Source: Clostridiaceae bacterium (GTDB taxonomy: Bacteria > Bacillota > Clostridia > Saccharofermentanales > UBA5734). Taken from it: DNA of 32,779 nt. The notes below the pieces were generated by a model. It ran no database searches. It was given only the letters and a program-made list of their open reading frames with translations, and was not told the DNA's origin. Within the stretch, counting starts at the first letter, position 1, and each line of letters begins with the position of its first letter. The DNA lies in assembly GCA_012520975.1 (NCBI GenBank), contig JAAYNF010000044.1, positions 1 to 32,779 of the forward strand. The letters are read 5' to 3'. This document shows positions 9,327 to 32,097 of the stretch, piece after piece. A program made the translations under genes and the position numbers.

Positions 9327-9432
9327 GATTCGGCCGGGAATTGATGACTCCTTGGCTGTCGTCGCGAAACATCATGGTGGCTGCACCCACTATCAATTTG
9401 TCCTTCGGCTGTGGAAAGGGGGATCGTATCCG

Positions 9433-10368: not shown

Positions 10369-10383
10369 GGTCCTTTTTTGTCC
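10350..10383 (+). terminator. possible terminator after LysR 1
   Basis: Outer arms GGACAAAA (10350-10357) and TTTTGTCC (10376-10383) pair perfectly, with an inner GGCCTC/GAGG(T)CC helix and a run of six T (10374-10379). The inner loop is tight and the hairpin overlaps the end of the gene, so termination may be partial. Confidence 0.35.
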
Positions 10384-10431
10384 TTTCCCTTCAAAGCACA
10401 GCGTTTTCACAACAAAAATGCAGGAGGCGTT

Positions 10432-11307
10432 ATGAATCAGCTGGGTATTTTATGTTTTACATCCGTTGCCCGAACCCGAAGTTTTTCCGCAACAGCTCGT
10501 GAGCTTCGGATCTCTCAGCAAGCGGTGAGCAAGCACATTCGAACTTTGGAAGAAAAATTGGGTTTTCCTTTGTTTCTCCGTAGTTATCAGACCGTTCACC
10601 TGACCAAAGGCGGAGAACGGATGCTGGTTTATTTTGAGCAACAAGAACAGCTTTTGAATGAGGTTCAGGAGCATTTCCGTTCCAATCGGAATCCCTCGCT
10701 CCTTCGCATTGCCTGGTCTCAATGGCTTGGTGCGCCGGCTTGGTTTCGGCAGATCATTGTGGATTTCGGAACGGCACATCCTTCCGTCCGTCTTGCAATT
10801 TACGACCTAAACGCAGAGGAAATAAGCACCGCATTGCAAAATGAAGAGGTTGATATTCTTCTTACCACGCAGTATGCCGCCGATTACCTCCCTGTTCTCT
10901 GGAACAGGACCCCGATAGGAAGAGAGCCGATTTTTCTACTTGGAAGCAAGTATGTCGATTACGATTTTGACGACTGCTCTCCATTTCCGTTTTTTGCCAC
11001 CTATGCGGGAGAATTCAGCGAGCAGGGCGTGCTGGATCGGGTCCAAAAGGAGTGTGAACGTTTCAATATTAATCCTAAAAGTATCGAGATCTGTCCCAAC
11101 ATGGGTTCCGTTTGTCTGAATGTCCTGTCCCGATGCGGCCTTGCATTGGGTCTTCGTATCCCGCCCCTTGTCCACTCCAATGAATTTATCCTTCATCCCA
11201 CCGGCCGGTATGCCTCGGTGGTCCTTTGCCGTCCTCTCCATCAGAAACGAGAAGATGCCGTCCTTTTTGAGCAATTCCTTTTCAATCGATTGGAGGTGGC
11301 ACAATGA
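10432..11307 (+). CDS. LysR-type transcriptional regulator 2
   Basis: Regulator of 291 aa. The HTH covers LGILCFTSVARTRSFSATAREL and ISQQAVSKHIRTLEEKLGF, with FLRSYQTVHLTKGGERML completing the DNA-binding domain. The effector domain is divergent from typical LysR sensors. ATG at 10432 follows GCAGGAGG with good spacing. Its last four bases overlap the start of LysR 3 (ATGA), so the two are very likely cotranscribed and translationally coupled. Targets unknown. Confidence 0.87.
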   Translation: MNQLGILCFTSVARTRSFSATARELRISQQAVSKHIRTLEEKLGFPLFLRSYQTVHLTKGGERMLVYFEQQEQLLNEVQEHFRSNRNPSLLRIAWSQWLGAPAWFRQIIVDFGTAHPSVRLAIYDLNAEEISTALQNEEVDILLTTQYAADYLPVLWNRTPIGREPIFLLGSKYVDYDFDDCSPFPFFATYAGEFSEQGVLDRVQKECERFNINPKSIEICPNMGSVCLNVLSRCGLALGLRIPPLVHSNEFILHPTGRYASVVLCRPLHQKREDAVLFEQFLFNRLEVAQ

Positions 11308-12206
11308 CATTCCCACAGATCGATTGTTTCCTGGCTGTGCTTAAACACGGCAGCATTGCCGGTGCTGCCAGAACGCTTTTTCTTTCGCCTCAGGTTGTAA
11401 GTCAGCACATTGCCCGGCTGGAAAAAGAATTGTCGGTTCGTTTGTTTTCCCGCAGCAGAACAGGTATGGAGCTCACGGCTCAAGGCCAAGACTTTTACGA
11501 ATTTGTCGTCCGTTGGATCGGGTTGCACAACCGCACATTAAAATCGATTCACGAGGTCTACGACAGCCTTCCTCGGTGTTTCAACATCGGCGTGTCGGAA
11601 TATATCGATTCTGTCGGTGCCATCAGCGGCGGTATTGTTGACTTTTCCCACAAGCGCGACGCTACCGACATCCGGTGTACGCAGAAAGACAATCAAGGTC
11701 TGCTGGTCGATATTTTTTCGGGCAAGCTGGATACGGCTTTGGTGTGCGGCGATCAAATCGCCCCCTATGCCGACTTGAGCATCGAGCCGGTTGCCAAGGA
11801 AGATCTTCGTCTCTACATTTCCGGGGTCACGGATCTTCCCGATGATCTGCAGTTGGATTCCCCTGAGCTTCAGGCGGTTTTCCGTTCCCTTCCCCATGTC
11901 AATACGCCTTATGGACAATGGAGCGCACAGGGCTGGGCCGAAATTTCCAGAAGAGTGAATACCTTCCTAGGCATTTCCCCTTACTCCTACTACTCCGTTC
12001 CGAATTTCCGTTCGGTCCTTGCCTGTATCCGCACGATCCCCTGTACTATTGTTTGCGATGCACGTTTTGGCTATCTGCGTGAGGAAGATGGCATTTACAA
12101 CATTCCTCTGGATGCAGACTTCGATCTTTGTTGCATCTGGCTGAAGACCAACGAAAATCCATTGGTTCAGGAATTCATTGAGCACATGAAATGGTACTAT
12201 AGCTAG
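11304..12206 (+). CDS. LysR-type transcriptional regulator 3
   Basis: Regulator of 300 aa with HTH residues QIDCFLAVLKHGSIAGAART and LSPQVVSQHIARLEKELSV, then LFSRSRTGMELTAQG. The sensor domain is diverged. GGAGGTGG lies a few nt before the ATG within the end of LysR 2. After its stop, 174 bp separate it from ferritin; there I see an imperfect GCAG/CTGC hairpin without a T-run, a TTTAAG/CTTAAA inverted repeat near 12321-12348, and no convincing promoter. Confidence 0.87.
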   Translation: MTFPQIDCFLAVLKHGSIAGAARTLFLSPQVVSQHIARLEKELSVRLFSRSRTGMELTAQGQDFYEFVVRWIGLHNRTLKSIHEVYDSLPRCFNIGVSEYIDSVGAISGGIVDFSHKRDATDIRCTQKDNQGLLVDIFSGKLDTALVCGDQIAPYADLSIEPVAKEDLRLYISGVTDLPDDLQLDSPELQAVFRSLPHVNTPYGQWSAQGWAEISRRVNTFLGISPYSYYSVPNFRSVLACIRTIPCTIVCDARFGYLREEDGIYNIPLDADFDLCCIWLKTNENPLVQEFIEHMKWYYS

Positions 12207-14884: not shown

Positions 14885-15466
14885 ATGGAAAAAGAGGGCA
14901 AAGCTCCAAAACCCGCATTGATTCGATTCGATAACGGTATATTCAACACGATGAAGTGGATTTCGTATATTTCTGCAGCGTGCCTGCTGGTGATCACACT
15001 GTTGTCTACTGCAGATGTAATGACATCCAAGCTTTTTAGCCGTAGCATTACCAATGCTACGGATATCGTCACATATCTGAATATCCCCGTGGTATTTCTT
15101 ACTGCTGCATACGTGCAGCTGGAACGTGGGCATACCCATATCGATTTGATTTACAAGCATTTTCCCATGTGGGGACAAAAGATCATACATACTGTTGGCA
15201 ATATTCTAGGCGTTGGACTTTCGGCTTTTATCGGTTATCGTGCCGTGCTGTCCACGATTCAGAAGTTTCAGATTGTGGAAAAAAGTTCTTCTTCCGCATC
15301 TGCCTTTATCGTCTGGCCTTTTGCGGCCTTGATTGCCTTGGGCTTTCTGCTGATGGCGGTGGCGTTCCTGTGGAGCCTGGTGCGTGAGTTTGTGCTGCCG
15401 CCTCGCGCGAAGTTTGATCCTGTGGCCGCCTCTGATGACATATTCGGAGAGGAGGGGAAAGCATGA
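14885..15466 (+). CDS. dctQ: TRAP transporter small permease (DctQ)
   Basis: Small membrane subunit of a tripartite ATP-independent periplasmic (TRAP) transporter, which uses an ion gradient to import organic acids. 193 aa with four hydrophobic segments starting near residue 25 (MKWISYISAACLLVITLLST); it has the DctQ-type ADVMTSKLF and VFLTAAYVQLERGHTHIDLI region. AGAGGAGAACC precedes ATG 14885. It overlaps dctM by 4 nt (ATGA). The upstream region holds the 24-bp inverted repeat; a poor TTGGAC-18-CATGAT pair is the only promoter candidate I see. Confidence 0.88.
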   Translation: MEKEGKAPKPALIRFDNGIFNTMKWISYISAACLLVITLLSTADVMTSKLFSRSITNATDIVTYLNIPVVFLTAAYVQLERGHTHIDLIYKHFPMWGQKIIHTVGNILGVGLSAFIGYRAVLSTIQKFQIVEKSSSSASAFIVWPFAALIALGFLLMAVAFLWSLVREFVLPPRAKFDPVAASDDIFGEEGKA

Positions 15467-16779
15467 CGCCTGATATGGTCACCGGTCTTCTGGTTTTTGC
15501 CGGGATGATCATCATGGTTTTGCTGGGCGTTCCCATCTTTTTGTCGATGCTGGCCGGCTCTTTTGTGGGCTTCATTGCCATCGGCGGCATCAAGATGATG
15601 ATCGTTCAGTTTACCACCGCGCCATTTTCCCTGGGTGCAAACTATACATATGCGGTCCTGCCCCTGTTCATGCTGGTTGGCTCGCTGGCCAGTGTAACGG
15701 GAATAGCACAGGGTGCCTTTGATGCCATGCACAAGTGGCTGGGACGTATCCGTGGCGGTATGCTGTACACTGTGGTGGGTGCCAACGCCCTGTTCGGTGC
15801 CTGCTCCGGCATCTCTGTGGCCGGAAATGTGGTATTCAGCCGATTGGCTGTTCCGGAGCTGGAGCGTCAGGGCTACGATCGCAGCCTGTCCTACGGTACG
15901 GTGACCGGAGCCGGTGTTCTGTCCTCCTTGATTCCTCCCAGCATTCCCATCATCATATGGTGCTTGGTCACAAATATGTCCATCGGCAATACGTTGATGT
16001 ATGGTCTCAGCGCCGGATTGATGATGGTGGTCCTGCTGTGCCTGTTTATCTTTTTTTATACTCTGGTTCGACCCGGCAAGGTGCCCGGCACAAAGAATAT
16101 GCCCAAGGTTTCCTTTATGGATAAGGTCAAGTCACTGCGGTATGTGATTCCCATCCTGCTGGTGTTCGCCCTTATTATCGGCGGTGCCGTTTGGGGTTGG
16201 TTCCCCGCTACCGTGGGCGGTGCCGTCGCCGTTTTCGCGCTGCTGATTTATGCCATCATCAAACGAGTTCCCGCAAAACAGATCGGACATTGCATCTGGG
16301 ATGCCGCCGTCATGAACGCAGGTATGTTTCCGATTATCATGGCCGGCACCATCTTCAGTCGCTTCATTTCTCTGACCGGTCTGGCTGACGGCATGGCCGA
16401 CCTCATCGCAGGTCTTGATCTGCATCCCATGCTGGTGTTCACACTGGTCATCATTTTCTACATCATTTGCGGCTGTGTGATGGATATTCCTTCCATTATC
16501 ATCATTACGGTTCCCGTATTCTTTCCCCTGCTCACAGGAATGGGCTTTAACCCGTATGTCCTGTGCGTTGCGCTGGTGTTTATGTGCGATGTGGCCGGCA
16601 TGACTCCTCCCATCGGCATGAATGTATTTGCCGTGGCCAACGCCCTGAGAGTTCCTCCCATGGATATCTTCAGGGGCTGTGTACCATTTTTCATTCTGGA
16701 CGTCATCTGTGTGTACATTATGGCGATTTTCCCCCAAATCGTGGAATTCCTGCCCAAATTGATGGGGGTAGGTTCGTAA
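15463..16779 (+). CDS. dctM: TRAP transporter large permease (DctM)
   Basis: Transport-catalysing membrane subunit of 438 aa with about twelve membrane segments. It shows DctM family blocks: FLSMLAGSFVGF, YAVLPLFMLVGSLASVTGIAQ, GANALFGACSGISVAGNVVF, IPPSIPIIIW and the C-terminal AGMTPPIGMNVFAVAN. The SGISVA-type loop, where most homologues have SGS.A, belongs to the scaffold around the ion and substrate sites. It is translationally coupled to dctQ. The binding-protein gene follows 28 nt later after AAGGAGG. Confidence 0.93.
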   Translation: MTPDMVTGLLVFAGMIIMVLLGVPIFLSMLAGSFVGFIAIGGIKMMIVQFTTAPFSLGANYTYAVLPLFMLVGSLASVTGIAQGAFDAMHKWLGRIRGGMLYTVVGANALFGACSGISVAGNVVFSRLAVPELERQGYDRSLSYGTVTGAGVLSSLIPPSIPIIIWCLVTNMSIGNTLMYGLSAGLMMVVLLCLFIFFYTLVRPGKVPGTKNMPKVSFMDKVKSLRYVIPILLVFALIIGGAVWGWFPATVGGAVAVFALLIYAIIKRVPAKQIGHCIWDAAVMNAGMFPIIMAGTIFSRFISLTGLADGMADLIAGLDLHPMLVFTLVIIFYIICGCVMDIPSIIIITVPVFFPLLTGMGFNPYVLCVALVFMCDVAGMTPPIGMNVFAVANALRVPPMDIFRGCVPFFILDVICVYIMAIFPQIVEFLPKLMGVGS

Positions 16780-16807
16780 AATTCAAATTTTTAAGGAGGA
16801 TGCAAAT

Positions 16808-17932
16808 ATGAGAAAAATCCTTGCAATACTTTTGGCGCTGCTGATGGTTTTTGCCGTGGCTGCCTGTGGCAATGGCTCCGGAAGTGACCCTTCTGTTCCC
16901 GGCAAGCCCAGCACCACTGCTCCCAAAAGCTCCGAAACAGAAAGCCCCGGCCCCGGCACCGAAGGCCCCGCCTACGACACCGTTAAGCTGATGTTTGCCA
17001 CCACTTACAATGAGCTTGAAACCAGCGGCAAGATCATTGTCTTCTTCACGAACTACATCACTGAGAAGTCCGGCGGTGCCGTCACCTTTGACATCAAGTG
17101 GGGAGGCACGGTGGCCGGAACCGGTGAAGAGCTGAGCTTCCTGCAGGCCGGCGCCTTTGACATGAGCGTTCTCGGCCAATCTCAGTACAGCGCGGTGTTT
17201 CCTCTGCTGAACTTTCCCGGCCAAACCGATGAGAGCCAGGAGAAATGCGTGAACTATTTCAGGCACATCGTGTATGAGAATGATGCGACGGCGTCCCTGA
17301 TTCAGGCTCAGATCGAAGCTCAGGGCGTTAAGATGTTGGGCTTTATGGGCAACGGCGGCAACGCTTTTGCTGCCAAGAAAGAACTCTCCACCCTGGACGA
17401 ATTGAACAAATATAAACTGGGCATCGGCATGAACCATTCTGCCTTTGAGCGTCTGGGCTTTTCTGTTCAGGCTTTGATGCCGTGGGATACTTATGACGGC
17501 CTGTCCAAGGGAGTGGTCGACGTGACATTTATGGCCCTGGCTCCTATGGTTGCCCTGAAATGGCATGAGGTGGCTCCCTATTTTGTCTCCGCCAATGTGT
17601 ATTCTTCCGGCAACTACTTTACCATCAGTCTGGAGCGCTGGAACAGCTTCAGTGCTGATACGAAGGCTCTGTTTGAAGAAGCCATGGCCGCCGCGACCGA
17701 CCACAGCCTGCAGCTGGTGGCCGAAGGGATGGCCGGCGCCGAGGCTGCTCTTACCGCTGCCGGCGGAAAGCTGATGAGCCTGAACGAGGCTGATACTCAG
17801 GCCCTCTTCGAAGTACTGTGGGATGCCGCTGTCGCCGACGGCCGTGCCTTGGCTAAGAGCGGCAATTGCGTGGAGGAAATGGAGACCATTCTGAATGCTT
17901 GCGCTGACTACCTCAAGCTCCCTTTGAATTAA
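16808..17932 (+). CDS. dctP: TRAP transporter solute-binding lipoprotein (DctP)
   Basis: Extracytoplasmic substrate-binding protein of 374 aa that delivers a ligand to DctQM. It has a lipoprotein signal (MRKILAILLALLMVF, lipobox AVAAC with Cys20) and then a Ser/Pro/Gly-rich linker to about residue 55, as in Gram-positive tethered binding proteins. The mature domain has the DctP pattern SGKIIVFFTNYITEKSGG, GTGEELSFLQAGAFDM and YDGLSKGVVDVTFM. The conserved Arg of the LKIRxP-type motif, which binds the ligand carboxylate in most DctP proteins, appears to be Gly here (YKLGIGMN). AAGGAGGATGC precedes the ATG. A strong terminator follows. Confidence 0.9.
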   Translation: MRKILAILLALLMVFAVAACGNGSGSDPSVPGKPSTTAPKSSETESPGPGTEGPAYDTVKLMFATTYNELETSGKIIVFFTNYITEKSGGAVTFDIKWGGTVAGTGEELSFLQAGAFDMSVLGQSQYSAVFPLLNFPGQTDESQEKCVNYFRHIVYENDATASLIQAQIEAQGVKMLGFMGNGGNAFAAKKELSTLDELNKYKLGIGMNHSAFERLGFSVQALMPWDTYDGLSKGVVDVTFMALAPMVALKWHEVAPYFVSANVYSSGNYFTISLERWNSFSADTKALFEEAMAAATDHSLQLVAEGMAGAEAALTAAGGKLMSLNEADTQALFEVLWDAAVADGRALAKSGNCVEEMETILNACADYLKLPLN

Positions 17933-22036: not shown

Positions 22037-22429
22037 ATAGCCAGACCGAGAAAGTGGAGAAACGTTTGTTGTTTACCTGAAAACAATAGGTTCGGGCCTC
22101 TTGATTCGCCTGCCGACATGGAAAACCATGTAAAAATGACCGTGGATGAGTATGAAACCATCAGACTTATCGATTTAGAGGGCCTTACCCAAGAAGCGTG
22201 CGCCCAACAAATGGAAGTTGCTCGCAGTACCGTTCAAGGCATTTATATCAAGGCAAGGGAGAAGCTGGCAGAAGCTTTAGTGAATGGCAAGATGTTGCTG
22301 ATTGAGGGCGGACCATACCGCCTTTGCGAAGGCTTGGAAAACGATCGCGGCCGTGGCTGCCACAGGCATGGACGTGGCAGATGCCCCACCGATGGTGCGG
22401 GTCGTCGAAGAGGCCGTCGAAGAGGTTGA
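22037..22429 (+). CDS. DUF134 (HTH) protein, apparent ATA start codon
   Basis: Predicted DNA-binding protein of 130 aa, DUF134 family (sigma-70 region 4-like HTH). The family N-terminus ARPRKWRNVCCLPENNRFG is read in frame immediately after ATA at 22037, then the HTH MTVDEYETIRLIDLEGLTQE and MEVARSTVQGIYIKAREKL, and EALVNGKMLLIEGG. An in-frame TGA at 22031 allows only GTT or ATA as the first codons, so ATA is the likely start; GGAG at 22024-22027 sits 9 nt upstream. ATG at 22118 would remove the conserved N-terminus. The C-terminus is a Gly/Arg/His-rich tail (RGRGCHRHGRGRC). Probably regulates this operon; inferred from repeated neighbourhood. Confidence 0.8.
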   Translation: MARPRKWRNVCCLPENNRFGPLDSPADMENHVKMTVDEYETIRLIDLEGLTQEACAQQMEVARSTVQGIYIKAREKLAEALVNGKMLLIEGGPYRLCEGLENDRGRGCHRHGRGRCPTDGAGRRRGRRRG

Positions 22430-22486
22430 TTGTGCATTGAAAATTGTCGAGAATGATCGAAATAAAAACCGAAACGGAGGATTCGT

Positions 22487-22855
22487 ATGATAATAGCAAT
22501 TCCGGTAGACCAGAAAACCTTGGAGTCGAATGTGTATATGTCCTTTGGGCGCGCTCCCTATTTCCTTATTTATGATGTCGAAACCAAAGAAAGTACTTTT
22601 ATCGATAACAGCGCGGCTGCAAGCACAGGAGGCGCGGGCATTAAAGCCGCGCAAACGATCGTGGACAACAAAGCCGCTGCATTGCTCACCCCTCGCTTGG
22701 GCGCCAACGCCGCCGGCGTTCTGAAATCTGCCGAAATCAAAATTTATAAAACCACGGCCGCTTCGGCCAAAGACAATATTGATGCTTTTGTTGCCGGCAA
22801 ACTTTCTTTGCTGGATGAAATTCATGCCGGATTTCGCGAGCGCGGGAGCAACTAG
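22487..22855 (+). CDS. NifX/NifB-like (orange protein type) metal-cofactor protein 1
   Basis: A 122-aa cytoplasmic protein of the dinitrogenase iron-molybdenum cofactor family (NifX/NafY/NifB C-terminal fold). It has MIIAIPVDQKTLESNVYMSFGRAPYFLIYDVETKE followed by STGGAGIKAAQTIVDNKAAALLTPRLGANAAGVL. Relatives include the Desulfovibrio orange protein that carries a Mo-Cu cluster, and nitrogenase cofactor carriers. No nif structural genes are present, so a nitrogenase role is unlikely. CGGAGG lies before the ATG. It is followed immediately by the first ATPase, whose start lies 1 nt after its stop. Confidence 0.85.
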   Translation: MIIAIPVDQKTLESNVYMSFGRAPYFLIYDVETKESTFIDNSAAASTGGAGIKAAQTIVDNKAAALLTPRLGANAAGVLKSAEIKIYKTTAASAKDNIDAFVAGKLSLLDEIHAGFRERGSN

Positions 22856-22856
22856 T

Positions 22857-23717
22857 ATGCGAATAGCCGTGCTAAGCGGCAAGGGCGGAACAGGAAAAAC
22901 GCTGGTAACGGTGAATTTGGCGGCTGTATCGCAAGAATCCGTATACATGGACTGCGATGTTGAAGAGCCGAATGGGCACTTATTTTTTAAACCCGAAGGC
23001 GTTCTGGTGGAGGAGGTATCCGTAAAGGTTCCGGAAGTGAAAGATGAATTATGCAACGGATGCCGTAAATGTGTTGATTTTTGCAATTTCAATGCCCTTG
23101 CCTATGTTCAAAACAAGCTGATTGTCTTTGATGAAGTTTGCCATTCTTGCGGCGGCTGTATTTTGGTCTGTCCTGAAAAGGCGCTGACCGAAAAAGAAAG
23201 AGCCATCGGTCAAATCCAAAAGGGTGTTTCGGACCAAGTATCGATATACACAGGGATATTAAATACCGGTGAGGCATCGGGGGTTCCCATTGTCAAAAGG
23301 CTGTTGGCCGAAGAAAGCCCGGAGATCACGAAACCGATTTTCATCGACTGTCCGCCGGGGAGCGCCTGCATCACAATGGAAAGCATCAAGGATGCGGACT
23401 ATTGCATATTGGTAGCCGAACCGACATTGTTCGGTGTTCATAATCTCAACATGGTGTACGAACTGGTCAGATTATTGGACAGACCTTTCGGCGTGGTTCT
23501 CAACAAATGTTTGGACGGGGAAAATCCGGCAGAGAAATTTTGTCTGGAAAAAAACATTAAAATATTGGGACGCATTCCCTTTGAAAATGAACTCGGGATA
23601 CTGAATTCAGATGCGGAGATTGTCGCGAACAAAAACAGTCGATACCGGGAAATGTTTGATTCTCTGCTCAGCACAGTGATCAAGGAGGTGTCCTATGCAG
23701 CAACTCCTGATTCTTAG
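22857..23717 (+). CDS. MinD/Mrp-type ATPase with ferredoxin insert 1
   Basis: P-loop ATPase of 286 aa with a deviant Walker A (LSGKGGTGKT) at its very start and the MDCDVEEPNGHLF motif after it. A two-cluster ferredoxin insert follows: CNGCRKCVDFCNFNAL and CHSCGGCILVCPEKAL, about residues 62-110. The switch/Walker B region is IFIDCPPGSACITMESI. These ATPases pair with ORP/NifX proteins and are thought to help build or move metal clusters. ATG 22857 has GGGAG 8 nt upstream. Its end overlaps the second ATPase by 23 nt, so expression is coupled and the two proteins may form a heterodimer. Confidence 0.9.
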   Translation: MRIAVLSGKGGTGKTLVTVNLAAVSQESVYMDCDVEEPNGHLFFKPEGVLVEEVSVKVPEVKDELCNGCRKCVDFCNFNALAYVQNKLIVFDEVCHSCGGCILVCPEKALTEKERAIGQIQKGVSDQVSIYTGILNTGEASGVPIVKRLLAEESPEITKPIFIDCPPGSACITMESIKDADYCILVAEPTLFGVHNLNMVYELVRLLDRPFGVVLNKCLDGENPAEKFCLEKNIKILGRIPFENELGILNSDAEIVANKNSRYREMFDSLLSTVIKEVSYAATPDS

Positions 23718-24573
23718 CGGTAAAGGCGGCACCGGGAAAACCACGATCGCAAGTGCGTTTATCAAGCTTTCCGGCGCCAAGGCCTACGCGGACTGCGATG
23801 TGGATGCCCCGAACCTGCATCTCATTACCGGATGGGATGTTGAACCGGAAAAAAAAGACTATTACGGGCTGCCAAAAGCAGAAATAAATCCGGATTTGTG
23901 TGCCGAATGTGATCGGTGCAGGCAAAACTGCCGATTTGATGCCATTTTAATAGACGAAACATATAGAGTGGATCCTTTTGCGTGTGAAGGCTGCTCGGTT
24001 TGCGAGTATGTCTGTCCTGCGGAGGCCATCACAATGGTTCCGGCAGTGGCGGGGGAACTGATGTTGTATTCAGACGCGGAAAAAATATTTTCAACAGCAC
24101 AGCTTAAAATGGGAAGCGGAACCTCCGGGTTGCTTGTCACCGAGGTGAAAAAGCAAATGAAGTCGGCGGCGACAGCCGATGCCAAACTGGCTGTTATTGA
24201 TGGATCTCCCGGAATAGGTTGTCCTGTGATTGCCTCCCTGAGCGGTGTGGATATGGTTTTGATTGTTGCGGAGCCCTCCATATCCGGTATCAGCGACATG
24301 GAGCGCATTATCGATACAGCAGCAAAGTTCGGAATAAAGACAGCGATCTGCATCAACAAATACGATACCAATATTAAAAACACAGAGAAGATCAAGGGGT
24401 TTTGTGAAAAACAAAACCTACCCTTTGTGGGTAGCATACCCTTTGACTCCGATGCAGTTAAGGCGATTAACAACGGCCAAACCATCGTGGACATCGATTG
24501 CGCATCGGGAACGGCGGTCAGGAAAATTTATCTCGAGACAATGAATCTGCTCTTTGAAAAGGATCGGCTGTAA
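23695..24573 (+). CDS. MinD/Mrp-type ATPase with ferredoxin insert 2
   Basis: Paralogue of the preceding gene, 292 aa. It shows Walker A LSGKGGTGKTTIA, ADCDVDAPNLHLI, the ferredoxin insert CAECDRCRQNCRFDAI and CEGCSVCEYVCPAEAI (about residues 68-115), and VIDGSPGIGCPVIASL. In the known Desulfovibrio orp locus two such ATPases are encoded side by side and contact ORP. AAGGAGG lies before the ATG within the end of the first ATPase gene. Confidence 0.9.
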   Translation: MQQLLILSGKGGTGKTTIASAFIKLSGAKAYADCDVDAPNLHLITGWDVEPEKKDYYGLPKAEINPDLCAECDRCRQNCRFDAILIDETYRVDPFACEGCSVCEYVCPAEAITMVPAVAGELMLYSDAEKIFSTAQLKMGSGTSGLLVTEVKKQMKSAATADAKLAVIDGSPGIGCPVIASLSGVDMVLIVAEPSISGISDMERIIDTAAKFGIKTAICINKYDTNIKNTEKIKGFCEKQNLPFVGSIPFDSDAVKAINNGQTIVDIDCASGTAVRKIYLETMNLLFEKDRL

Positions 24574-24619
24574 AAAAGTCAGGTTCCGGTAAAATCAAAA
24601 AAATGGGAGGAAAACTAAA

Positions 24620-24964
24620 GTGATCAAAATTGCTGTGGCAAGCGATAACGGAATGGTGGCGGAACACTTTGGACATTGCGAGGGATTCGAGGTTTTTGAT
24701 GTCGAAAACAAGCAAATCGTCAAGAGTGAAACCGTTGCCAATCCCGGGCATCGACCGGGGTTTTTACCGAACTTTCTTGCCGATCGCGGGGTCAATGTCA
24801 TCATCAGCGGTGGAATGGGTCCCGGGGCGGTCGAGATTTTTAACCAAAGAAACATTGAGGTTATTATAGGAGCAAAAGGCAATGCCGAAGAAGCGGCGGA
24901 AGCGTATTTGCAAGGCACCCTTCGATCTTCCGGTTCGGTTTGTCGTGAACATCAGCATCCGTAA
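24620..24964 (+). CDS. NifX/NifB-like (orange protein type) metal-cofactor protein 2
   Basis: A 114-aa protein of the same family as the one at 22487 and closer to the classical sequence: MIKIAVASDNGMVAEHFGHCEGFEVFDVE, then NPGHRPGFLPNFLADRGVNVIISGGMGPGA. It ends in CREHQHP, which could bind metal. It uses a GTG start after GGGAGGAAAA. It is the last gene of the ORP-like operon. Two family members flanking two ATPases suggest a scaffold/carrier pair. Confidence 0.88.
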   Translation: MIKIAVASDNGMVAEHFGHCEGFEVFDVENKQIVKSETVANPGHRPGFLPNFLADRGVNVIISGGMGPGAVEIFNQRNIEVIIGAKGNAEEAAEAYLQGTLRSSGSVCREHQHP

Positions 24965-25017
24965 TGGGCGCAATAAATAAATAAAACTTGGCATGCTTCG
25001 GCCATGCGTTACACGGA

Positions 25018-25041
25018 CAGCACCCTTCTTAAAGGGTGTTG
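25018..25041 (+). other. hairpin between ORP-like and Mo-enzyme operons
   Basis: A 10-bp stem (25018-25027 with 25032-25041, one G-U) and a CTTA loop, without a strong T-run. Another small hairpin (GCATG/CATGC) lies near 24991-25007. It probably marks the end of the upstream transcript. Confidence 0.45.
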
Positions 25042-25067
25042 TGTAAGTTGTGATTAATTGCTAAACT
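25039..25067 (+). promoter_or_regulatory. candidate promoter of the Mo-enzyme operon
   Basis: TTGTGT (25039-25044), a 17-bp spacer and TAAACT (25062-25067), each 4 of 6 to consensus. The leader would be about 110 nt and would contain the small open frame at 25102. Confidence 0.4.
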
Positions 25068-25101: not shown

Positions 25102-25182
25102 TTGATTCGCGTGTCTGCACTGAAAGACAATGCAGTGGTGCTGGATACTGCGCTGCTGTCAATGAAAACGGAGGGTATCTGA
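25102..25182 (+). CDS. possible 26-aa leader ORF or gene remnant
   Basis: The frame is open from 25054 to TGA at 25180-25182, whose last base is the A of the next gene's ATG (TGATG). From TTG 25102 it would encode IRVSALKDNAVVLDTALLSM-like sequence with ordinary codon use. No ribosome site is visible. It may be a translationally coupling leader, the tail of a decayed gene, or chance. Confidence 0.25.
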   Translation: MIRVSALKDNAVVLDTALLSMKTEGI

Positions 25183-27857
25183 TGCAAGAACAAGTTGCCA
25201 AAATGAAGGACATGCTCGATCCGGCCACGATGGATGATCTGGACTTGGTATTGTCCGGGCCGGAAAGCTTTGCGCCTCTGACCGAATCCGATGTCGAAAC
25301 GGACCACGAGGTGCAAAAGATCAATACCTGCTGTCGAGCCTGTATTTCCAACTGCGGTGTCATTGCTCATGTTCGCAATGGACGGGTCATCAAGCTGGAG
25401 GGCAACCCGGAGGACCGGATGAGCAAGGGCGCCATGTGCGCCAAGGGCTTGGCCGGCATTCAGGCTCTTTACCACCCCAACCGCAACAAATACCCCATGC
25501 AGCGGGTGGGTGAACGTGGCGAAAACAAATGGAAGCGAATTTCCTGGGAAGAGGCCATTGACATTATCGCCCGAAAACTCATGGAAACCCGAGAAAAATA
25601 TGGCGCCGAAACCGTATTCTGCTCCACCGGCGGCGGCGGTAACCCGGAAATCTGGAGCATCGCCCGCTTTTGCAATATTTTTGGTACGCCCAATTGGTTT
25701 GAGCCGGGCTGCGCCCAGTGTTATCTGCCCCGCGTGCTGGCAACCGCGATGATGTACGGCGGCGATGACTCCAGCATTGCCGACTCCAACGCATTGGAGA
25801 TTTATTTCCCGGAAGACACGGAAATGCAATCGCTGGTGCTCTGGGGTACCGATCCGTCCTATTCCTGCACCGCCAGCGGCGGCGCGGCGGTGGTCGACCT
25901 GCGGGCCAAAGGGGTCAAAACCGTGGTGATTGATCCACGCCTGACGCCGGACGCGGCCAAGGCCGACGTCTGGCTGCCGGTTCGCCCGGGAAGCGACGTG
26001 GCACTGATGCTGACCTGGATCCGCTACATTCTGGACAATCGGCTTTATGATGCTGATTTTGTTCTGCGCTGGACCAACCTGCCCTACCTTGTCAATACCG
26101 AGACCAACATGCTGCTCAGGGCCGAAACCAGCAACGATCCGTCCATTCCGGATACTTTCATGGTGCTGGATGCCCGGACCGGTTCGCCCAGGCCGCTGCC
26201 TTATCCTTGGGATGACAATTTGGAACCGATTCTGGACGGCGTTTGTCACATTGATGGTGTCGAATATAAAACCGGTTACCGTCTGCTCAAAGAGCGCGTT
26301 GACCCCTATACCCTCGAAAAAGGTGCTGAACTTTGCTGGCTCGAACCCGACCGCATCGAACAAGGCATCCGTATGTTTACCGACAATCAGCCGGGAGGAC
26401 TGGCCCTTGGTGTTGCCACCGATCAAACACCCAATTCGATTCAGGCCGCCATGGCCGCCAACATCATCGATCTGCTGATGGGCAATGTTGAGCGACCCGG
26501 AGCGCTGATGCAGCGTTTCCGCAAAAGCGGTGTTTTCGATATGCCCAACTATCCGGTACCGATCGCCGCCGGCCGTCTGCCTGACGAGCAGCTGAAAAAA
26601 CGGCTGGGCGGTATCGAACACAAGGGTCTGCATATCTGGTACGCCGGCCATGCCACCAGCATCTTTGATGCTGTTTTGACCGGCGAGCCTTATAAGCCTA
26701 GGATCTGGATCGACCGCTCCGGCAACAAGATGGGTGCGGTTGCCGACAGTCATAAGGTCAAAAAGGTCATTGACGAGCTGGATTTTATTGTCCATATGTA
26801 TATGTATCCCACCTCATTTTCAGCCTACGCCGACATCCTGCTTCCGACAACCGAGTGGCTGGAAACCGATATGATGGTGGAAACCTGCAACACCCTTTGC
26901 GCCCGACAGGCGGTGACACATTTGTGGGAAACCATGGATGAAACCGAGATCTGGTCCCGTTTGGCCAAGCGTTGCGGCGAGTTGGGCCATGAAGCCTGCC
27001 GTTTGGCCTTTGATGCCGAACACATGGGTAAAGATCTGCCTTACTGGGATTCGGTCACCGAATTGTGGGATCATTTTCTTGGTCGAATCGACCTTACATG
27101 GGAGCAGCTCAAGCAAAACACGCCGTATGAGTATATGCCCAAAGATGAATGGAAAACATATTACATTTACCGGCAGCCGGATCCTCAGACCAATTTGCCG
27201 GTGGGATTCAATACTCCGTCGAAAAAGATCGAGCTTTATCTGGAAAGCATGATTACGCTGGGCCGGACGGGACTGCCCTTCAGTGCCTGTGAATTGGAGC
27301 CGGCTACTCAGGATTACGACCCGTTGCCATATTTCCTCGAGCCCTCGGAGAGCCCCTTGGCCGACAGTGAACTGGCCAAGTCGTTTCCGCTGGTTATGAC
27401 CAATGGCCGGGTACCGTTGTATCATCACACCACGTTGCGGAATGTTCCTTGGATGCGCGAGCTCTACCCGGTTCCGGAACTATTGATCCACCCGACCGAT
27501 GCGGAAAAATATGCCGTCGAACACGGCGACTGGGTCTGGATCGAATCCCTGCGCGGCAAAATCAGGGCCTTGGCCAGCCTGACCCAAGGGATCATGCCCG
27601 GCGTCGTCTTTATGGAGCGATTCTGGAATCCGGAGACGCTGGACAGCAAAACCCATGGTTGGCAGGAAATGAATGTCAACGTTCTGACCAAAGCCGATGC
27701 TCCGTTTAATGATGTTGTCGGAACCTACACGTTGCGGGGCATTCTGGTCAAGATTTATAAGGCCGATGGCCCGCCGGAAGGGATCTGGCAAAATCCGGAG
27801 GATTTCCGGGTCTGGCTGCCGGAACCGGCTGATCCGACAAAGGAGGTCCGTTTATGA
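25182..27857 (+). CDS. molybdopterin oxidoreductase catalytic subunit (DMSO reductase family)
   Basis: An 891-aa Mo/W-bis-MGD enzyme. A [4Fe-4S] domain lies at residues 51-86 (C51-x2-C54-x3-C58-x27-C86). Cofactor-binding signatures follow: LWGTDPSYS, VVIDPRLTPDAAKADVWLPVRPGSDVALMLT, and the C-terminal molydopterin domain with MTNGRVPLYHHTTLRN. Cys177 or Cys180 (FEPGCAQCYLPR) is the candidate Mo ligand. There is no Tat or other signal peptide, so it is cytoplasmic. C-terminal blocks such as YHHTTLRNVPWMRELYPVPE recall catechol dehydroxylase- and transhydroxylase-like clades more than thiosulfate or nitrate reductases, but that is a memory-based impression. It is first in an operon with an Fe-S subunit, chaperone and AsrAB-like proteins. 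Substrate unknown. Confidence 0.9.
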   Translation: MQEQVAKMKDMLDPATMDDLDLVLSGPESFAPLTESDVETDHEVQKINTCCRACISNCGVIAHVRNGRVIKLEGNPEDRMSKGAMCAKGLAGIQALYHPNRNKYPMQRVGERGENKWKRISWEEAIDIIARKLMETREKYGAETVFCSTGGGGNPEIWSIARFCNIFGTPNWFEPGCAQCYLPRVLATAMMYGGDDSSIADSNALEIYFPEDTEMQSLVLWGTDPSYSCTASGGAAVVDLRAKGVKTVVIDPRLTPDAAKADVWLPVRPGSDVALMLTWIRYILDNRLYDADFVLRWTNLPYLVNTETNMLLRAETSNDPSIPDTFMVLDARTGSPRPLPYPWDDNLEPILDGVCHIDGVEYKTGYRLLKERVDPYTLEKGAELCWLEPDRIEQGIRMFTDNQPGGLALGVATDQTPNSIQAAMAANIIDLLMGNVERPGALMQRFRKSGVFDMPNYPVPIAAGRLPDEQLKKRLGGIEHKGLHIWYAGHATSIFDAVLTGEPYKPRIWIDRSGNKMGAVADSHKVKKVIDELDFIVHMYMYPTSFSAYADILLPTTEWLETDMMVETCNTLCARQAVTHLWETMDETEIWSRLAKRCGELGHEACRLAFDAEHMGKDLPYWDSVTELWDHFLGRIDLTWEQLKQNTPYEYMPKDEWKTYYIYRQPDPQTNLPVGFNTPSKKIELYLESMITLGRTGLPFSACELEPATQDYDPLPYFLEPSESPLADSELAKSFPLVMTNGRVPLYHHTTLRNVPWMRELYPVPELLIHPTDAEKYAVEHGDWVWIESLRGKIRALASLTQGIMPGVVFMERFWNPETLDSKTHGWQEMNVNVLTKADAPFNDVVGTYTLRGILVKIYKADGPPEGIWQNPEDFRVWLPEPADPTKEVRL

Positions 27858-28483
27858 GACAGAATGTTCAGAATATCATGGTGATCGATCTCGACCGTTG
27901 CATCGGCTGTATGGCCTGCCAGGTTGCCTGCAAGTTGGAAAATGAAGTGGCCCTTGGCACCGATCGGATCAAGGTGCTGACCATCGGTCCCACCGGAACC
28001 TATCCTGATCTGCAGATGTATTTCCTGCCCGTTATGTGCCAGCAGTGCGAAGAACCGCCCTGTGTGGCGGTCTGTCCGACCGGCGCCAGCTACCAACGCA
28101 CCGAAGCCGGCGACATCCAGATCGACAGGGACATCTGCATTGGCTGCCAAAGTTGCTATCGGGCCTGCCCCTACACATTGAACATCCCTAATAACGAATT
28201 GCGCGTTATGGACAAATGCAATCAATGCGCCCATCTGCAGGAAATCGGCGAGAAGCCTGCCTGTGTGAAAAATTGTCCCGGACGCGCCATGTTTTTTGGT
28301 GACGTCCATGATCCGAATAGCGACGTGTCCCGGATACTGCGCGAAACCGATCCTGCTCACGTTCATACATTGCCGGATTCCGGCAATCGTCCCATGACGC
28401 GCTATATCTTGCGCAAAGACGACTGGATCGAGATCATGCCCCAAGAGGTTCCTGAACCGGTTAACCGGAGACGACAACGATGA
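27854..28483 (+). CDS. four-cluster ferredoxin subunit (DmsB/NrfC type)
   Basis: Electron-transfer subunit of 209 aa with 16 cysteines in four [4Fe-4S] motifs: CIGCMACQVAC, CQQCEEPPCVAVC, CIGCQSCYRAC, and CNQCAHLQEIGEKPACVKNC. It overlaps the catalytic subunit gene by 4 nt (ATGA) and the chaperone gene by 4 nt, so it is part of the Mo enzyme. Normally this subunit passes electrons to or from a membrane NrfD/DmsC protein; none is encoded here. No signal peptide. Confidence 0.92.
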   Translation: MRQNVQNIMVIDLDRCIGCMACQVACKLENEVALGTDRIKVLTIGPTGTYPDLQMYFLPVMCQQCEEPPCVAVCPTGASYQRTEAGDIQIDRDICIGCQSCYRACPYTLNIPNNELRVMDKCNQCAHLQEIGEKPACVKNCPGRAMFFGDVHDPNSDVSRILRETDPAHVHTLPDSGNRPMTRYILRKDDWIEIMPQEVPEPVNRRRQR

Positions 28484-29175
28484 ATATGCAAGACCCGCAA
28501 CAAAGCTGGCTGAGAAGCCGGCAAATCATGTATCGCCTGATGAGCCGTCTGTATTGGCGCGAGGTCGACCAAACCCTGTTGGCCGGCTTGAAAAAAATGC
28601 CGATCCCGGCAGACTGCGCCGACCATGATCTGCAGGTCGGCTGGAACCTGTTCGGAGAAGCCGTTGCCGGTTTGGGGGATGAATGCCTGGAGGAGCTTGC
28701 CGTTGATTTTGCCGTTACCTTTTTGGGTGCCGGAACCGCCAAGCCGACTTTGATGGCTCTGCCCTTTGCCTCCGTATATACCAGCATCAAGCGAATGTTG
28801 ATGCAAGATGCCCGCGATAGAGCCGTTGCGGTTTATCGGAGCAAGGGTCTGCAGGTCGGATCCCATCTGGCCGGTCTGCCCGAAGACCATCTGGCCGTTT
28901 TGCTGGACTTTATGGCGTTTTTGTGTGGGACAAACGAAACAACCGCACCCGAAGACGTCCGGCTGCAATCGGCGCTACAGGAACAACAGACATTTCTGGA
29001 GCAGCATCTGCTTAATTGGATCGGATTGTTCTGCGAAGATGTTGCAAAGCTGGGCAAAACACCGTTCTACCGTGCTGTCGCAGGTTTAACCGAGGCCTAT
29101 TTGCAATTTGACGCCCGGCAGATCCAAGAGCTGCGGCAACCGGAAGCAATTTGTGCAGTATCGACTGCGAGATGA
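28480..29175 (+). CDS. TorD/DmsD-type molybdoenzyme chaperone
   Basis: An all-helical chaperone of 231 aa that binds an immature Mo subunit and aids cofactor insertion. It has the weak but typical TorD pattern: YRLMSRLYWREVDQTLL at the start, ELAVDFAVTFLGAG (family E..DF...F.G) in the middle, then LPFASVYTS and a DHLAVLLDFMAFL helix. Its position after the catalytic and Fe-S genes strongly supports this. As the Mo subunit has no Tat signal, the role is maturation only, not export proofreading. Confidence 0.82.
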   Translation: MNMQDPQQSWLRSRQIMYRLMSRLYWREVDQTLLAGLKKMPIPADCADHDLQVGWNLFGEAVAGLGDECLEELAVDFAVTFLGAGTAKPTLMALPFASVYTSIKRMLMQDARDRAVAVYRSKGLQVGSHLAGLPEDHLAVLLDFMAFLCGTNETTAPEDVRLQSALQEQQTFLEQHLLNWIGLFCEDVAKLGKTPFYRAVAGLTEAYLQFDARQIQELRQPEAICAVSTAR

Positions 29176-29188
29176 GGAGGTTTCATTT

Positions 29189-30241
29189 ATGGGGTACCGT
29201 GTAAGCTATGAACAAGCCGATGGATTGCTGAAAACCTGGCAAGAACAATACCGGGTTTACGCGCCGAAGCGCTTTGCCGGACGGGGCTGGAGGCCGGGTA
29301 CCGATATGATTCGATATGGCGAAATTCAATCCTTTCGAGATGTTGCCTATACCGAACAGTCTCATTTTTCGCCCAAGGATGTTGTGGCGCCGATCATGCA
29401 GACCATGTTGTCTTTCACAGCCGATGAGGTAAAGGTCAGCAGTATCGACGACAAGGGGATTCTGCTTTTGGCTCGACCGTGCGACATCCACGGCATTCAA
29501 CGGCTGGACAAAATTTTTCTTGAAAATGGCGGTCAGGCTGATTTCTATTACCAACGCTACCGCGAAAAAATCAAAATCATCATGATTGAGTGTCGTGAAG
29601 GTTGGGAACACTGTTTTTGCGTGTCAATGGGCGCCAATCGGACCGATGCGTACAGCATGGCTGTTCGTTTTGACCCTGATGGTTTGCTCTTTGAGGTTCG
29701 GGATGAAGATTTTGTCGATTCTTTTGCTGGTCTGCCGACAGTAGATTTTACTCCGGAATTTGTCAGTCAGGACAAAAATCCGGTGCAATTGCCTGTCATA
29801 ACAGGTCTGGAACAACTAAAAGCCGCCTATGATTTGCCCATGTGGGCGGAATACGACGACCAGTGCATCAGTTGCGGCAGTTGCAACACCGTGTGCACGA
29901 CCTGCAGTTGCTTTGACACGATCGACGTCATTTTCAGCGAAACCAGCCGGGACGGTGAGCGCCGCCGCGTCTGGTCATCCTGCATGCTGGAAAGCTTTAG
30001 CACCATGGCCGGGGGGCATGCGGTTCGCAAAACACCGGGCGAGCGCATGCGGTTCAAGGTTCTGCACAAGGTCCATGATTATCGAGCGCGTTTTGGCGGC
30101 GATGAGCATATGTGTATCGGTTGTGGTCGTTGCGACATCCGCTGTCCGGAGGACATATCTTTTATTGATGCCGTCAACCGGTTGAGCGCAGCGATGGCCG
30201 ACCAAGCCTCGGTTGCCGCCGACACAAAGGAGGGAAATTAA
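29189..30241 (+). CDS. asrA: AsrA-like Fe-S subunit (anaerobic sulfite reductase A family)
   Basis: A 350-aa iron-sulfur protein similar in length and layout to AsrA of anaerobic sulfite reductase and the beta subunit of Pyrococcus soluble hydrogenases. The N-terminal domain has ARPCDIHGIQRLDKIFL and ECREGWEHCFCVSMG. The C-terminal part has CISCGSCNTVCTTCSCFD and CIGCGRCDIRCPEDISF, two [4Fe-4S] motifs. In those systems it bridges the AsrB-type flavoprotein and the catalytic subunit. ATG at 29189 follows GAGGAGG; upstream in-frame codons overlap torD and are not family-like. It lies 13 nt after torD and 2 nt before the AsrB-like gene. asrC, the sirohaem subunit, is absent. Confidence 0.88.
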   Translation: MGYRVSYEQADGLLKTWQEQYRVYAPKRFAGRGWRPGTDMIRYGEIQSFRDVAYTEQSHFSPKDVVAPIMQTMLSFTADEVKVSSIDDKGILLLARPCDIHGIQRLDKIFLENGGQADFYYQRYREKIKIIMIECREGWEHCFCVSMGANRTDAYSMAVRFDPDGLLFEVRDEDFVDSFAGLPTVDFTPEFVSQDKNPVQLPVITGLEQLKAAYDLPMWAEYDDQCISCGSCNTVCTTCSCFDTIDVIFSETSRDGERRRVWSSCMLESFSTMAGGHAVRKTPGERMRFKVLHKVHDYRARFGGDEHMCIGCGRCDIRCPEDISFIDAVNRLSAAMADQASVAADTKEGN

Positions 30242-30243
30242 CG

Positions 30244-31032
30244 ATGGAGAACATCATGCTGCCGTCAAGCGCAAAAATACTTGACATCATTCATGAGACC
30301 ACAGCGGAATATACTTTCCGCGTTGCCTACGACCAACCGATCCGCCATGGCCAGTTTTTCCAGCTTTCCATCCCTAAAGTGGGCGAAGCGCCCATCTCGG
30401 TCAGCGCCAAAGGGGATGGCTGGATCGAATTTACCATTCGCAAGGTCGGACGGTTGACCGAGGGGCTTTTCGGCCTGCAACCCGGTCATACGATCTTTTT
30501 GCGCGGGCCGTACGGCAATTATTTCCCGCTCGAATCCTTTGACAACAAGGCGCTGGTGGTCATTGCCGGCGGAACCGGGATGGCCGCGGTCAGGAGTCTG
30601 CTCAGACACTATGCCGACAACCGAGCCGACATCCGGGATGTCTATCTGATTGCGGGATTCAAAGATATCAACAGCGTGCTTTTCACCCAGGACCTCCAGC
30701 GGTTCCGGGAAACCTTCAATACCATTGCCACGTTGGATCATATGACCGTTCCGGGTTTTTCCACCGGACTGGTCACCGAACACATTCCCTCTATTCCCTT
30801 TGCCGAGCTTGGGGAGTACAATGTCGTGATCGTCGGACCGCCCCTCATGATGCGTTTTGCCTCGGAGGCCTGTATCCAAAATGGAGCCGATCCTGACAAC
30901 ATGTGGCTGTCTTTTGAGCGCAAAATGTCCTGTGCGGTAGGCAAATGCGGCCATTGCAAGATCAATGAAACCTATGTCTGCCTGGAGGGACCTATTTTTC
31001 GTTATACCCAAGCCCAAGAGCTGCTTGACTAG
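30244..31032 (+). CDS. asrB: AsrB-like FAD/NAD(P)H oxidoreductase subunit
   Basis: A 262-aa ferredoxin-NAD(P)+ reductase-fold protein. It has an FAD domain (GHTIFLRGPYGNYFPLE), a nucleotide-binding domain (LVVIAGGTGMAAVRSLLRHY, VVIVGPPLMMRF), and the C-terminal [2Fe-2S] loop CAVGKCGHCKINETYVC as in AsrB, HydG and PyrK. It would take electrons from NADH or NADPH and pass them to the AsrA-like subunit. AAGGAGGG precedes the ATG at 30244. It is the last gene of the operon; the convergent apbE stop is only 3 bp away and no terminator lies between them. Confidence 0.9.
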   Translation: MENIMLPSSAKILDIIHETTAEYTFRVAYDQPIRHGQFFQLSIPKVGEAPISVSAKGDGWIEFTIRKVGRLTEGLFGLQPGHTIFLRGPYGNYFPLESFDNKALVVIAGGTGMAAVRSLLRHYADNRADIRDVYLIAGFKDINSVLFTQDLQRFRETFNTIATLDHMTVPGFSTGLVTEHIPSIPFAELGEYNVVIVGPPLMMRFASEACIQNGADPDNMWLSFERKMSCAVGKCGHCKINETYVCLEGPIFRYTQAQELLD

Positions 31033-31035
31033 TTA

Positions 31036-32097
31036 TTACTTTGCCGGATCGGATCTCAAAGTGTTCAATCCGGGGCTCTCGAGCAACGAGCCGTCCGGCA
31101 GGCACCAGAGGGCTTCGGTTTGCTCAAATGACTCCAGCAGCCCGAGGCCTGTTTCATACGGAAGACAGAACAACGCCGTGGATAGCACGTCGGCCAGACC
31201 GGCGTCGGGTGTGACAACCGTGACCGAAAGGTAATTGTTTTCCGGGAACAAGGTATCGACATCGATAATGTGGTGGTAGCGCCGGCCGTTTGCCTCATAG
31301 TATCGCTCGTAGCTTCCGCTGGTGGCCACCGAAAGGTCGTGGATGTTCAAGACCGCCAGAAAACCGTTGTCCGGGTCAACGGGATTTTCAATGCCGGCCC
31401 GCCAAGATTCCGGCTTCCGGCTCCGATAACCGATGGCGCGCACATTTCCGCCAACCGATATCAGCAAATGCTTGCCGCCGCGTTTTTCGGCTGCTTGGGC
31501 GGCTTGCTCGACAGCATAGCCTTTGGCAATGGCGCCCACGTCAAGGGACATCGCCGGATCACGAAGCTCAACGGTGTTGTTTCCAGGGTCGACGATCAAA
31601 TCCGAAATGTTGGTGTGACGATCGGCCTCCTTGAGGATTGCCGGTTCCGGAACCTGAGCTGTGGCCGGGTCGGCTAGGGCGGCCGTTCGATGGTTGTGCC
31701 AAATTTTTAGAACCGAACCCATGGCGACGTTAACCCTGCCTTGGGTTTTTTCATGCATTTCCAAAGAAAAAAGCAGCAGATCAATGATTTTTCGATCGAC
31801 CGGAACCGGACCCTGACCGGCTTTGTCATTAACATCCTTGAGGTTGGTTAATCCGGGATAGCTGTTGTAGATATCAAACAGTTGATGGTACATTTCCAAA
31901 TCGTTTTTGATGTGCCGGATCTGTTCTTCAAAGTCGGCACGACTTTCGGCATAGCCGACCATCTGGGTCAGCGTGTCAAAAAGGCCGATAAACTCAGCCT
32001 CATATCTGACCGGCTCGGCAGGCGTGCACGCTGAGCCGGCAAGAACCAGCAGGCAAACCGAAATCCAAAGCAGGCTTTTTTGACATTTCATCAACAT
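31036..32097 (-). CDS. apbE: ApbE, FAD:protein FMN transferase lipoprotein
   Basis: Surface enzyme that attaches FMN to a Thr/Ser of target proteins in a Mg-dependent reaction. The 353-aa product has a signal (LLWISVCLLVLAGSAC, a lenient lipobox with Cys24) and the ApbE core: FDTLTQMVGY, MGSVLKIWHNH, MSLDVGAIAKGYAVEQA, LLISVGGNVRAIG, DLSVATSGSYERYY, HHIIDVDTLFPENN. The usual HIIDPxTG motif is altered to HIIDVDTLFP. The start may be 32097 or the ATG at 32091. No FMN-binding-domain protein (RnfG, NqrC type) is encoded in the window, so the target is elsewhere or in the flanks. Confidence 0.93.
   Translation of the reverse strand: MLMKCQKSLLWISVCLLVLAGSACTPAEPVRYEAEFIGLFDTLTQMVGYAESRADFEEQIRHIKNDLEMYHQLFDIYNSYPGLTNLKDVNDKAGQGPVPVDRKIIDLLLFSLEMHEKTQGRVNVAMGSVLKIWHNHRTAALADPATAQVPEPAILKEADRHTNISDLIVDPGNNTVELRDPAMSLDVGAIAKGYAVEQAAQAAEKRGGKHLLISVGGNVRAIGYRSRKPESWRAGIENPVDPDNGFLAVLNIHDLSVATSGSYERYYEANGRRYHHIIDVDTLFPENNYLSVTVVTPDAGLADVLSTALFCLPYETGLGLLESFEQTEALWCLPDGSLLESPGLNTLRSDPAK

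Follow-up and report, generated by a model that had tools for sequence, protein, structure and literature searches.

In a 32,779-nucleotide stretch of DNA from a Clostridiaceae bacterium (hereafter the window), positions 25182-31032 of the plus strand carry a tight operon of five intact open reading frames (ORFs). These encode a molybdenum (Mo) catalytic subunit of the dimethyl sulfoxide (DMSO) reductase family, an iron-sulfur (Fe-S) subunit, a TorD-type chaperone, and proteins of the AsrA and AsrB types (Table 1). An earlier note, made from the letters alone, had described five overlapping or tightly packed genes for a signal-less Mo subunit, a 16-cysteine Fe-S protein, a TorD chaperone and AsrA- and AsrB-like partners, with neither membrane anchor nor AsrC. 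Our counts, domain searches and genome scans bear out this description throughout: the Mo subunit has its MopB Pfam domains and no Tat (twin-arginine translocation) signal. The Mo/Fe-S and Fe-S/TorD junctions are 4-nt overlaps (ATGA), followed by gaps of 13 nt (TorD-AsrA) and 2 nt (AsrA-AsrB). For AsrA, the mechanical ORF runs from 29108; we used the ATG at 29189, which stands behind a Shine-Dalgarno sequence (GAGGAGG).

Table 1. The five genes of the operon and the leader of its Mo subunit (window coordinates; aa, amino acids)
Feature	Position	Strand	Characteristics
Mo catalytic subunit, predicted bis-molybdopterin guanine dinucleotide (bis-MGD) type	25182-27857	+	891 aa; PF04879+PF00384+PF01568; no NCBIfam model at cut-off
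Degenerate Tat-type leader of the Mo subunit, residues 1-41, predicted non-exported	25182-25304	+	KMKDMLDPATMDDLDLVLSG; aligned with the RRxFLKATAVTG leaders of NrfD-linked relatives
Four-cluster Fe-S subunit, DmsB/NrfC/TtrB-like	27854-28483	+	209 aa, exactly 16 Cys
TorD/NarJ-type chaperone	28480-29175	+	231 aa; Nitrate_red_del 8e-26
AsrA-type Fe-S electron-transfer subunit	29189-30241	+	350 aa; TIGR02910 411 bits (cut-off 323)
AsrB-type FAD/NAD(P)/[2Fe-2S] subunit	30244-31032	+	262 aa; TIGR02911 329 bits (cut-off 289); DHODB_Fe-S_bind and NAD_binding_1

The membrane anchor NrfD is absent both from the operon and from the entire source assembly, which comprises 2.0 Mb and is 96% complete. AsrC is likewise missing from the operon, and nothing in the source genome rises above its cut-off (best 42 bits, cut-off 324); nor did we find TatC in that genome. 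Family scans detected no large or small NiFe hydrogenase subunit in the operon or the window. The closest solved relatives of AsrA and AsrB are, respectively, the beta (9nez_B) and gamma (9nez_C) subunits of Pyrococcus furiosus soluble sulfhydrogenase I (SHI). The genome encodes one MoeA and only two molybdopterin oxidoreductases; the other (L018, G000:C171, 4162-6815, minus strand; 714 aa) has an Fe-S partner of its own and falls near PsrA with weak support. Upstream of the operon we found no molybdenum cofactor (Moco) riboswitch, and promoter and terminator scans returned chance-level results. An upstream hairpin near 25017-25042 (ACAGCACCCTTCTTAAAGGGTGTTGT) may well close the preceding unit, though its presence is no proof.

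A scan of one genome per bacterial or archaeal species yielded 112 confirmed relatives, the best 80 of which we kept as homologous loci. The set of Mo, Fe-S, TorD, AsrA and AsrB genes recurs in 50 of the 80, in Clostridia and lactobacilli, with AsrA and AsrB directly behind Mo-FeS-(TorD); this count includes one locus (L050) in which TorD was undetected. Because the identical order, which the earlier note had proposed to seek in other genomes, recurs in 50 other loci, the five-gene linkage is not a product of chance. In another 17 loci, NrfD (Pfam NrfD/DmsC) stands in place of AsrAB, and no locus has both. One of the 17, L067, had been skipped by the automatic count because of a second homologue on the same locus; its spacing and its relationship to other Sporomusa loci led us to place it manually. 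Moreover, 27 of the 50 AsrAB loci encode a TorD-AsrA fusion protein, in whose chain Pfam recognises both domains. The predicted structure of the Parasporobacterium paucivorans fusion matches both SHI beta and NarJ-family chaperones, at a mean predicted local distance difference test (pLDDT) score of only 74. Such a fusion is a physical link between the chaperone of a Mo enzyme and an NAD(P)H module. From this fusion and from the mutual exclusion of AsrAB and NrfD, a strong link between the Mo subunit and AsrAB can be predicted. Three related metagenome-assembled genomes (MAGs) carry a tandem AsrB pair behind AsrA (L051, 9250-10989; L054; L055).

The source bacterium is of a gut and digester type. 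The relatives kept, whose habitats we partly read from record titles, include clostridia of the rumen, of guts (those of termites among them) and of digesters, with E. oxidoreducens DSM 3217, P. paucivorans and Clostridiaceae BL-3, as well as Loigolactobacillus, Agrilactobacillus, Sporomusa, Sutterellaceae, Deferribacterota and Acidobacteriota, among others. In a sister species the operon is present, with a Mo subunit 96% identical; it was not found in the other close relatives of the source species that we searched. The operon is sparse in larger samples: within the class, two more genomes had it, and a phylum sample gave a single full-length relative. Viral contigs contained no relative, plasmids only matches at 27-28% identity, and phages only DmsA-type fragments and one 22% match.

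The two architectures also differ at the N-terminus of the Mo subunit. A Tat signal (RRxFLKATAVTG...) opens this subunit in all 17 NrfD loci, whereas the arginine pair is absent from 49 of the 50 AsrAB-linked subunits (Fisher p ~5e-15, a value that ignores shared descent). The rest of the leader is nevertheless kept in register in many of the latter, as where RRxFLKATAVTG has become KKDFLSATNITG. The leaders of Sporomusa (NRRQFLKATAVTGIATALGGS), Clostridiaceae BL-3 (NKKDFLSATNITGITSALNGS), E. oxidoreducens (NMDFLAATTVIGLDEAVG) and the window (KMKDMLDPATMDDLDLVLSG) illustrate this, and the earliest AsrAB branch (L049/L052/L061) retains NKKDFLSATNITGITSAL, compared with NRRQFLKATAVTGIATAL in Sporomusa. 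TatC itself is absent from 18 of 19 AsrAB-type genomes tested and present in all eight of the NrfD type. The 18 include several isolates and the BL-3 genome with its 3.1-Mb contig; an incomplete assembly may conceal genes in an individual MAG, a lesser concern across isolates. Given both the loss of the arginines and the missing TatC, Tat export of the Mo subunit is hardly possible in these hosts. In the AlphaFold2 model, residues 1-41 are disordered (pLDDT <50).

Phylogeny gives this change a direction. In a reference tree, which has long branches, contains no catechol dehydroxylase (no Eggerthella or Gordonibacter sequence) and includes acetylene hydratase and PsrA sequences that are partial because they were rebuilt from printed alignments, the Mo family forms one clade (100/100). 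Joined to it at 100/99 is a sister group made up of acetylene hydratase together with paralogues that Sporomusa, Acidobacteriota and two more Bacillota genomes encode; outside this union lie PsrA, DmsA, NapA and FdhF. The phylogenetic comparison with known clades that the earlier note had called for thus places the subunit outside the thiosulfate, polysulfide and formate groups. In a rooted tree of 83 rows (rooted on the paralogues, leader columns removed, quick method), the 51 AsrAB rows form one clade (Shimodaira-Hasegawa-like approximate likelihood ratio 99; 86/97 in a smaller, careful tree), while the NrfD forms are paraphyletic and branch off earlier. A Tat-exported, NrfD-anchored enzyme is therefore the likelier ancestral state, with a single swap of anchor for AsrAB; the TorD-AsrA fusion needs three changes. 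In the AsrB tree, the Mo-linked sequences together with L124 and L125 form a 100/100 clade nested within the AsrB of genomes that have AsrC directly downstream (in L125, AsrC follows 24 nt behind AsrB). The AsrAB module therefore derives from AsrABC, and not from hydrogenases or PyrK.

From these comparisons of sequences we consider it probable that the five genes specify a cytoplasmic, NAD(P)H-linked Mo reductase, a judgement that covers its architecture and electron routing, the substrate being weighed separately below. Two proposals of the earlier note, a soluble NAD(P)H-linked Mo enzyme and its service by AsrAB, thereby gain support from the 50 loci in which AsrAB occupy the place of NrfD, from the fusions and from the want of an AsrC above cut-off in the source genome. 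We hypothesize that AsrB would take hydride from NAD(P)H onto FAD and pass electrons to its [2Fe-2S] cluster. These would then travel through the [4Fe-4S] clusters of AsrA to the four carried by the DmsB-like subunit, and on through the N-terminal [4Fe-4S] cluster of the Mo subunit (motif C51/C54/C58/C86) to the bis-MGD site, where substrate would be reduced. We infer this path by analogy with homologous parts, and with it the reductive direction, the cytoplasmic location and the role of the TorD-like chaperone, which would bind the degenerate leader as a quality check on cofactor loading, with no part in export. The ancestor would have been a Tat-exported enzyme with an NrfD anchor that drew its electrons from quinol; twin arginines and anchor would have been lost in a Tat-less clostridial lineage that acquired, once, AsrA and AsrB from an AsrABC sulfite reductase.

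Several observations run counter to this account. Two loci, L046 (3887-8385) and L066 (5558-7191), have Mo, Fe-S and TorD genes and room downstream, with neither AsrAB nor NrfD nearby; four more (L025, L039, L041, L089) gave partial matches only, some of which lie at the end of a contig or have disrupted frames. In L073 and L098 the arginine pair is present and NrfD was undetected, and L053 keeps the pair without a hydrophobic core. The one AsrAB-type genome with TatC belongs to C. lacusfryxellense (L061), in the earliest-branching AsrAB group. Finally, no conserved substrate gene stands beside the operon across the loci.

The AlphaFold2 model of the catalytic subunit has a mean pLDDT of 88.1 and a predicted template modelling score of 0.90, and the nearest PDB entry by both sequence and fold is acetylene hydratase (2e7z). 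Cys180, invariant in 81 sequences, aligns with the metal ligands Cys141 of acetylene hydratase and Cys173 of PsrA and is predicted to be the metal ligand here, presumably of a bis-MGD cofactor. Where acetylene hydratase has Asp13, 75 of 81 homologues carry Ile and the other six Thr, and most residues of the hydrophobic pocket are changed; we take Asp13 to be the catalytic residue next to the [4Fe-4S] cluster, and the hydrophobic ring to be the other feature with a role at that site. The earlier note had read in the C-terminal sequence a kinship with catechol dehydroxylases or transhydroxylases. The former accords with the subunit's position next to acetylene hydratase; the latter is not supported, and we rejected a transhydroxylase identity, since pyrogallol hydroxytransferase is distant (1e-7 with the family profile) and its true orthologues in related genomes are separate proteins (e.g., L197, 1734 bits to 4v4c).

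By analogy, the likeliest single substrate class would be a phenolic or other polyhydroxylated aromatic from which a hydroxyl group is reductively removed, as a fermentative electron sink; we favour it tentatively, and an aromatic dehydroxylase is plausible from the sequence relationships. E. oxidoreducens and P. paucivorans, known for gallate/pyrogallol and methoxylated aromatics, have the operon and also encode pyrogallol hydroxytransferases. In P. paucivorans, a transhydroxylase, a UbiX-like flavoprotein, a transporter and Moco genes lie about 10 kb upstream of the operon, a proximity that the intervening Moco genes may explain. Among conserved neighbours, a LysR-type gene stands next to the operon or close by in 17 loci; a minority of loci have Moco biosynthesis genes and a few an Old Yellow Enzyme-type Fe-S flavoenzyme near the operon, and a vinylphenol reductase lies close to one Loigolactobacillus locus. 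Such neighbours are suggestive of phenolics and too sparse to decide. The source genome has no transhydroxylase and offers no clue to a phenolic substrate. In its fullest form, the scenario would be that a single exchange of anchor for the input half of a sulfite reductase left gut clostridia and lactobacilli, a clade in which most lack Tat, with a cytoplasmic Mo enzyme that uses NAD(P)H to dehydroxylate phenolics, and so turned a respiratory reaction into a fermentative sink; we put it forward only as a possibility.

A serious competitor, itself well short of probable, keeps the soluble NAD(P)H-linked enzyme and gives it a non-aromatic acceptor, such as sulfur, a sulfoxide, an N-oxide, or a selenium or arsenic oxyanion. 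Polysulfide reductase ranks second by sequence and in Foldseek, AsrAB derive from a sulfur-oxyanion reductase, and gut bacteria meet such acceptors. PhsA is the best NCBIfam match, albeit far below its cut-off (278 vs 694 bits), no equivalog reaches its cut-off, and PsrA, DmsA, NapA and FdhF are excluded from the group formed with acetylene hydratase. On the bit score and the position of PsrA we rejected a thiosulfate or polysulfide reductase identity. It is rather unlikely that the enzyme instead runs in reverse, as an NAD(P)+-linked dehydrogenase or hydroxylase that oxidises its substrate with water. The wider family does include oxidising members, e.g., ethylbenzene dehydrogenase (2ivf, among the fold and sequence matches), and P. 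furiosus SHI, with its AsrAB homologues, works reversibly; the AsrABC origin and the NrfD/quinone-linked sisters, found among gut and sediment bacteria that respire, nevertheless suggest flow towards the Mo site. We regard as very unlikely that AsrAB are merely co-transcribed and serve an AsrC or NiFe hydrogenase encoded elsewhere: scores above the sulfite-reductase equivalog cut-offs and sulfhydrogenase subunits as best solved relatives speak for it, and the lack of an AsrC above cut-off in the genome, the linked loci, the fusions and the exclusion of NrfD against it. Least credible of all is a non-redox enzyme like acetylene hydratase, its closest solved structure, with redox subunits only keeping the metal reduced, given that Asp13 and most of the hydrophobic ring are not kept and a full NAD(P)H chain is encoded.

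As to the rest of the window, a cluster directly upstream of the operon (22118-24964) encodes two MinD/Mrp-type ATPases that contain ferredoxin inserts and are flanked by two Nitro_FeMo-Co (NifX/NafY-like) proteins; DUF134 and DUF5320 proteins come just ahead of it. An ApbE-type FAD:protein FMN transferase (lipoprotein-like; 31036-32097, minus strand) is convergent with asrB. Farther away are three LysR-type regulators in tandem on one strand (9352-12206), a DctQ-DctM-DctP tripartite ATP-independent periplasmic transporter (14885-17932), possibly a carboxylate or aromatic acid importer, and an ordinary thiamine pyrophosphate riboswitch (RF00059) ahead of a YuaJ/ThiT thiamine transporter (1253-2069).

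What our analysis adds to the earlier note is the breadth of the distribution, the sister type with NrfD and a Tat signal, the degenerate Tat leader, the fusion of TorD with AsrA, the lack of TatC and the derivation of AsrAB from AsrABC. Among the open-licence PMC papers searched, we found no description of an AsrAB-linked molybdoenzyme. If we are correct, an exported, membrane-linked respiratory molybdoenzyme became a soluble NAD(P)H enzyme through a change of input module, a transition of which sister forms and an intermediate leader survive. There is also a consequence for annotation: TIGR02910 and TIGR02911 call sulfite reduction where AsrA and AsrB most likely feed a molybdoenzyme (window 29189-31032, loci L022-L101), although the source genome has no AsrC above cut-off; annotating sulfite reduction from AsrAB alone is unsafe. 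Cultured E. oxidoreducens, Parasporobacterium and Loigolactobacillus carry the enzyme, a concrete target in the search for gut and rumen reductions not yet assigned.

Comparison with known systems brings out what is distinctive here. The MopB catalytic and four-cluster Fe-S subunits follow the DmsABC/PsrABC plan of the DMSO reductase family's complex iron-sulfur molybdoenzymes, and the AlphaFold2 fold agrees, but AsrAB replace the NrfD/DmsC anchor. The nearest kin, the Mo-FeS-NrfD enzymes of Sporomusa, Sutterella, Parasutterella, Deferribacteres and Acidobacteriota, have Mo subunits 51-69% identical and share the Fe-S subunit and TorD-like chaperone; theirs are NrfD and a real Tat signal, in contrast to the AsrAB and degenerate leader of this clade. 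Relative to the Salmonella-type AsrABC sulfite reductase, the same AsrA and AsrB families have a Mo enzyme as partner instead of AsrC. P. furiosus SHI has a homologous electron-transfer pair feeding a soluble enzyme, there a NiFe hydrogenase. The acetylene hydratase of Pelobacter acetylenicus, the nearest characterised branch, shares the Cys metal ligand, but is smaller (about 730 versus 891 aa), has Asp13 in place of Ile, and differs in that redox partners are encoded here.

The catechol dehydroxylases Dadh, Hcdh and Cadh of Eggerthella and Gordonibacter are reported to have acetylene hydratase as their closest relative, and those of E. lenta combine a Tat signal with a 4Fe-4S partner and an anchor in the membrane (PMC7028382); their accessory proteins are a chaperone and ferredoxins (PMC11887054). 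Compared by description, this is the plan of our NrfD sister type; the AsrAB type, unlike them, has an NAD(P)H module and neither Tat signal nor anchor. In the NrfD-type Sporomusa loci L057 (12900-15549), L059 and L067, Tat-type ferredoxin proteins and multi-4Fe-4S proteins follow TorD, recalling the accessory genes described for Dadh. The closest precedent for the leader is NarG of membrane nitrate reductase, a Mo enzyme that is not exported yet has a remnant Tat leader, bound by its NarJ/TorD-type chaperone NarJ (PMC10609526; for the leader also Ize et al. 2009, as cited in PMC4464133). The present enzyme would be an additional case; NarG keeps its membrane anchor, whereas here AsrAB have taken the anchor's place.

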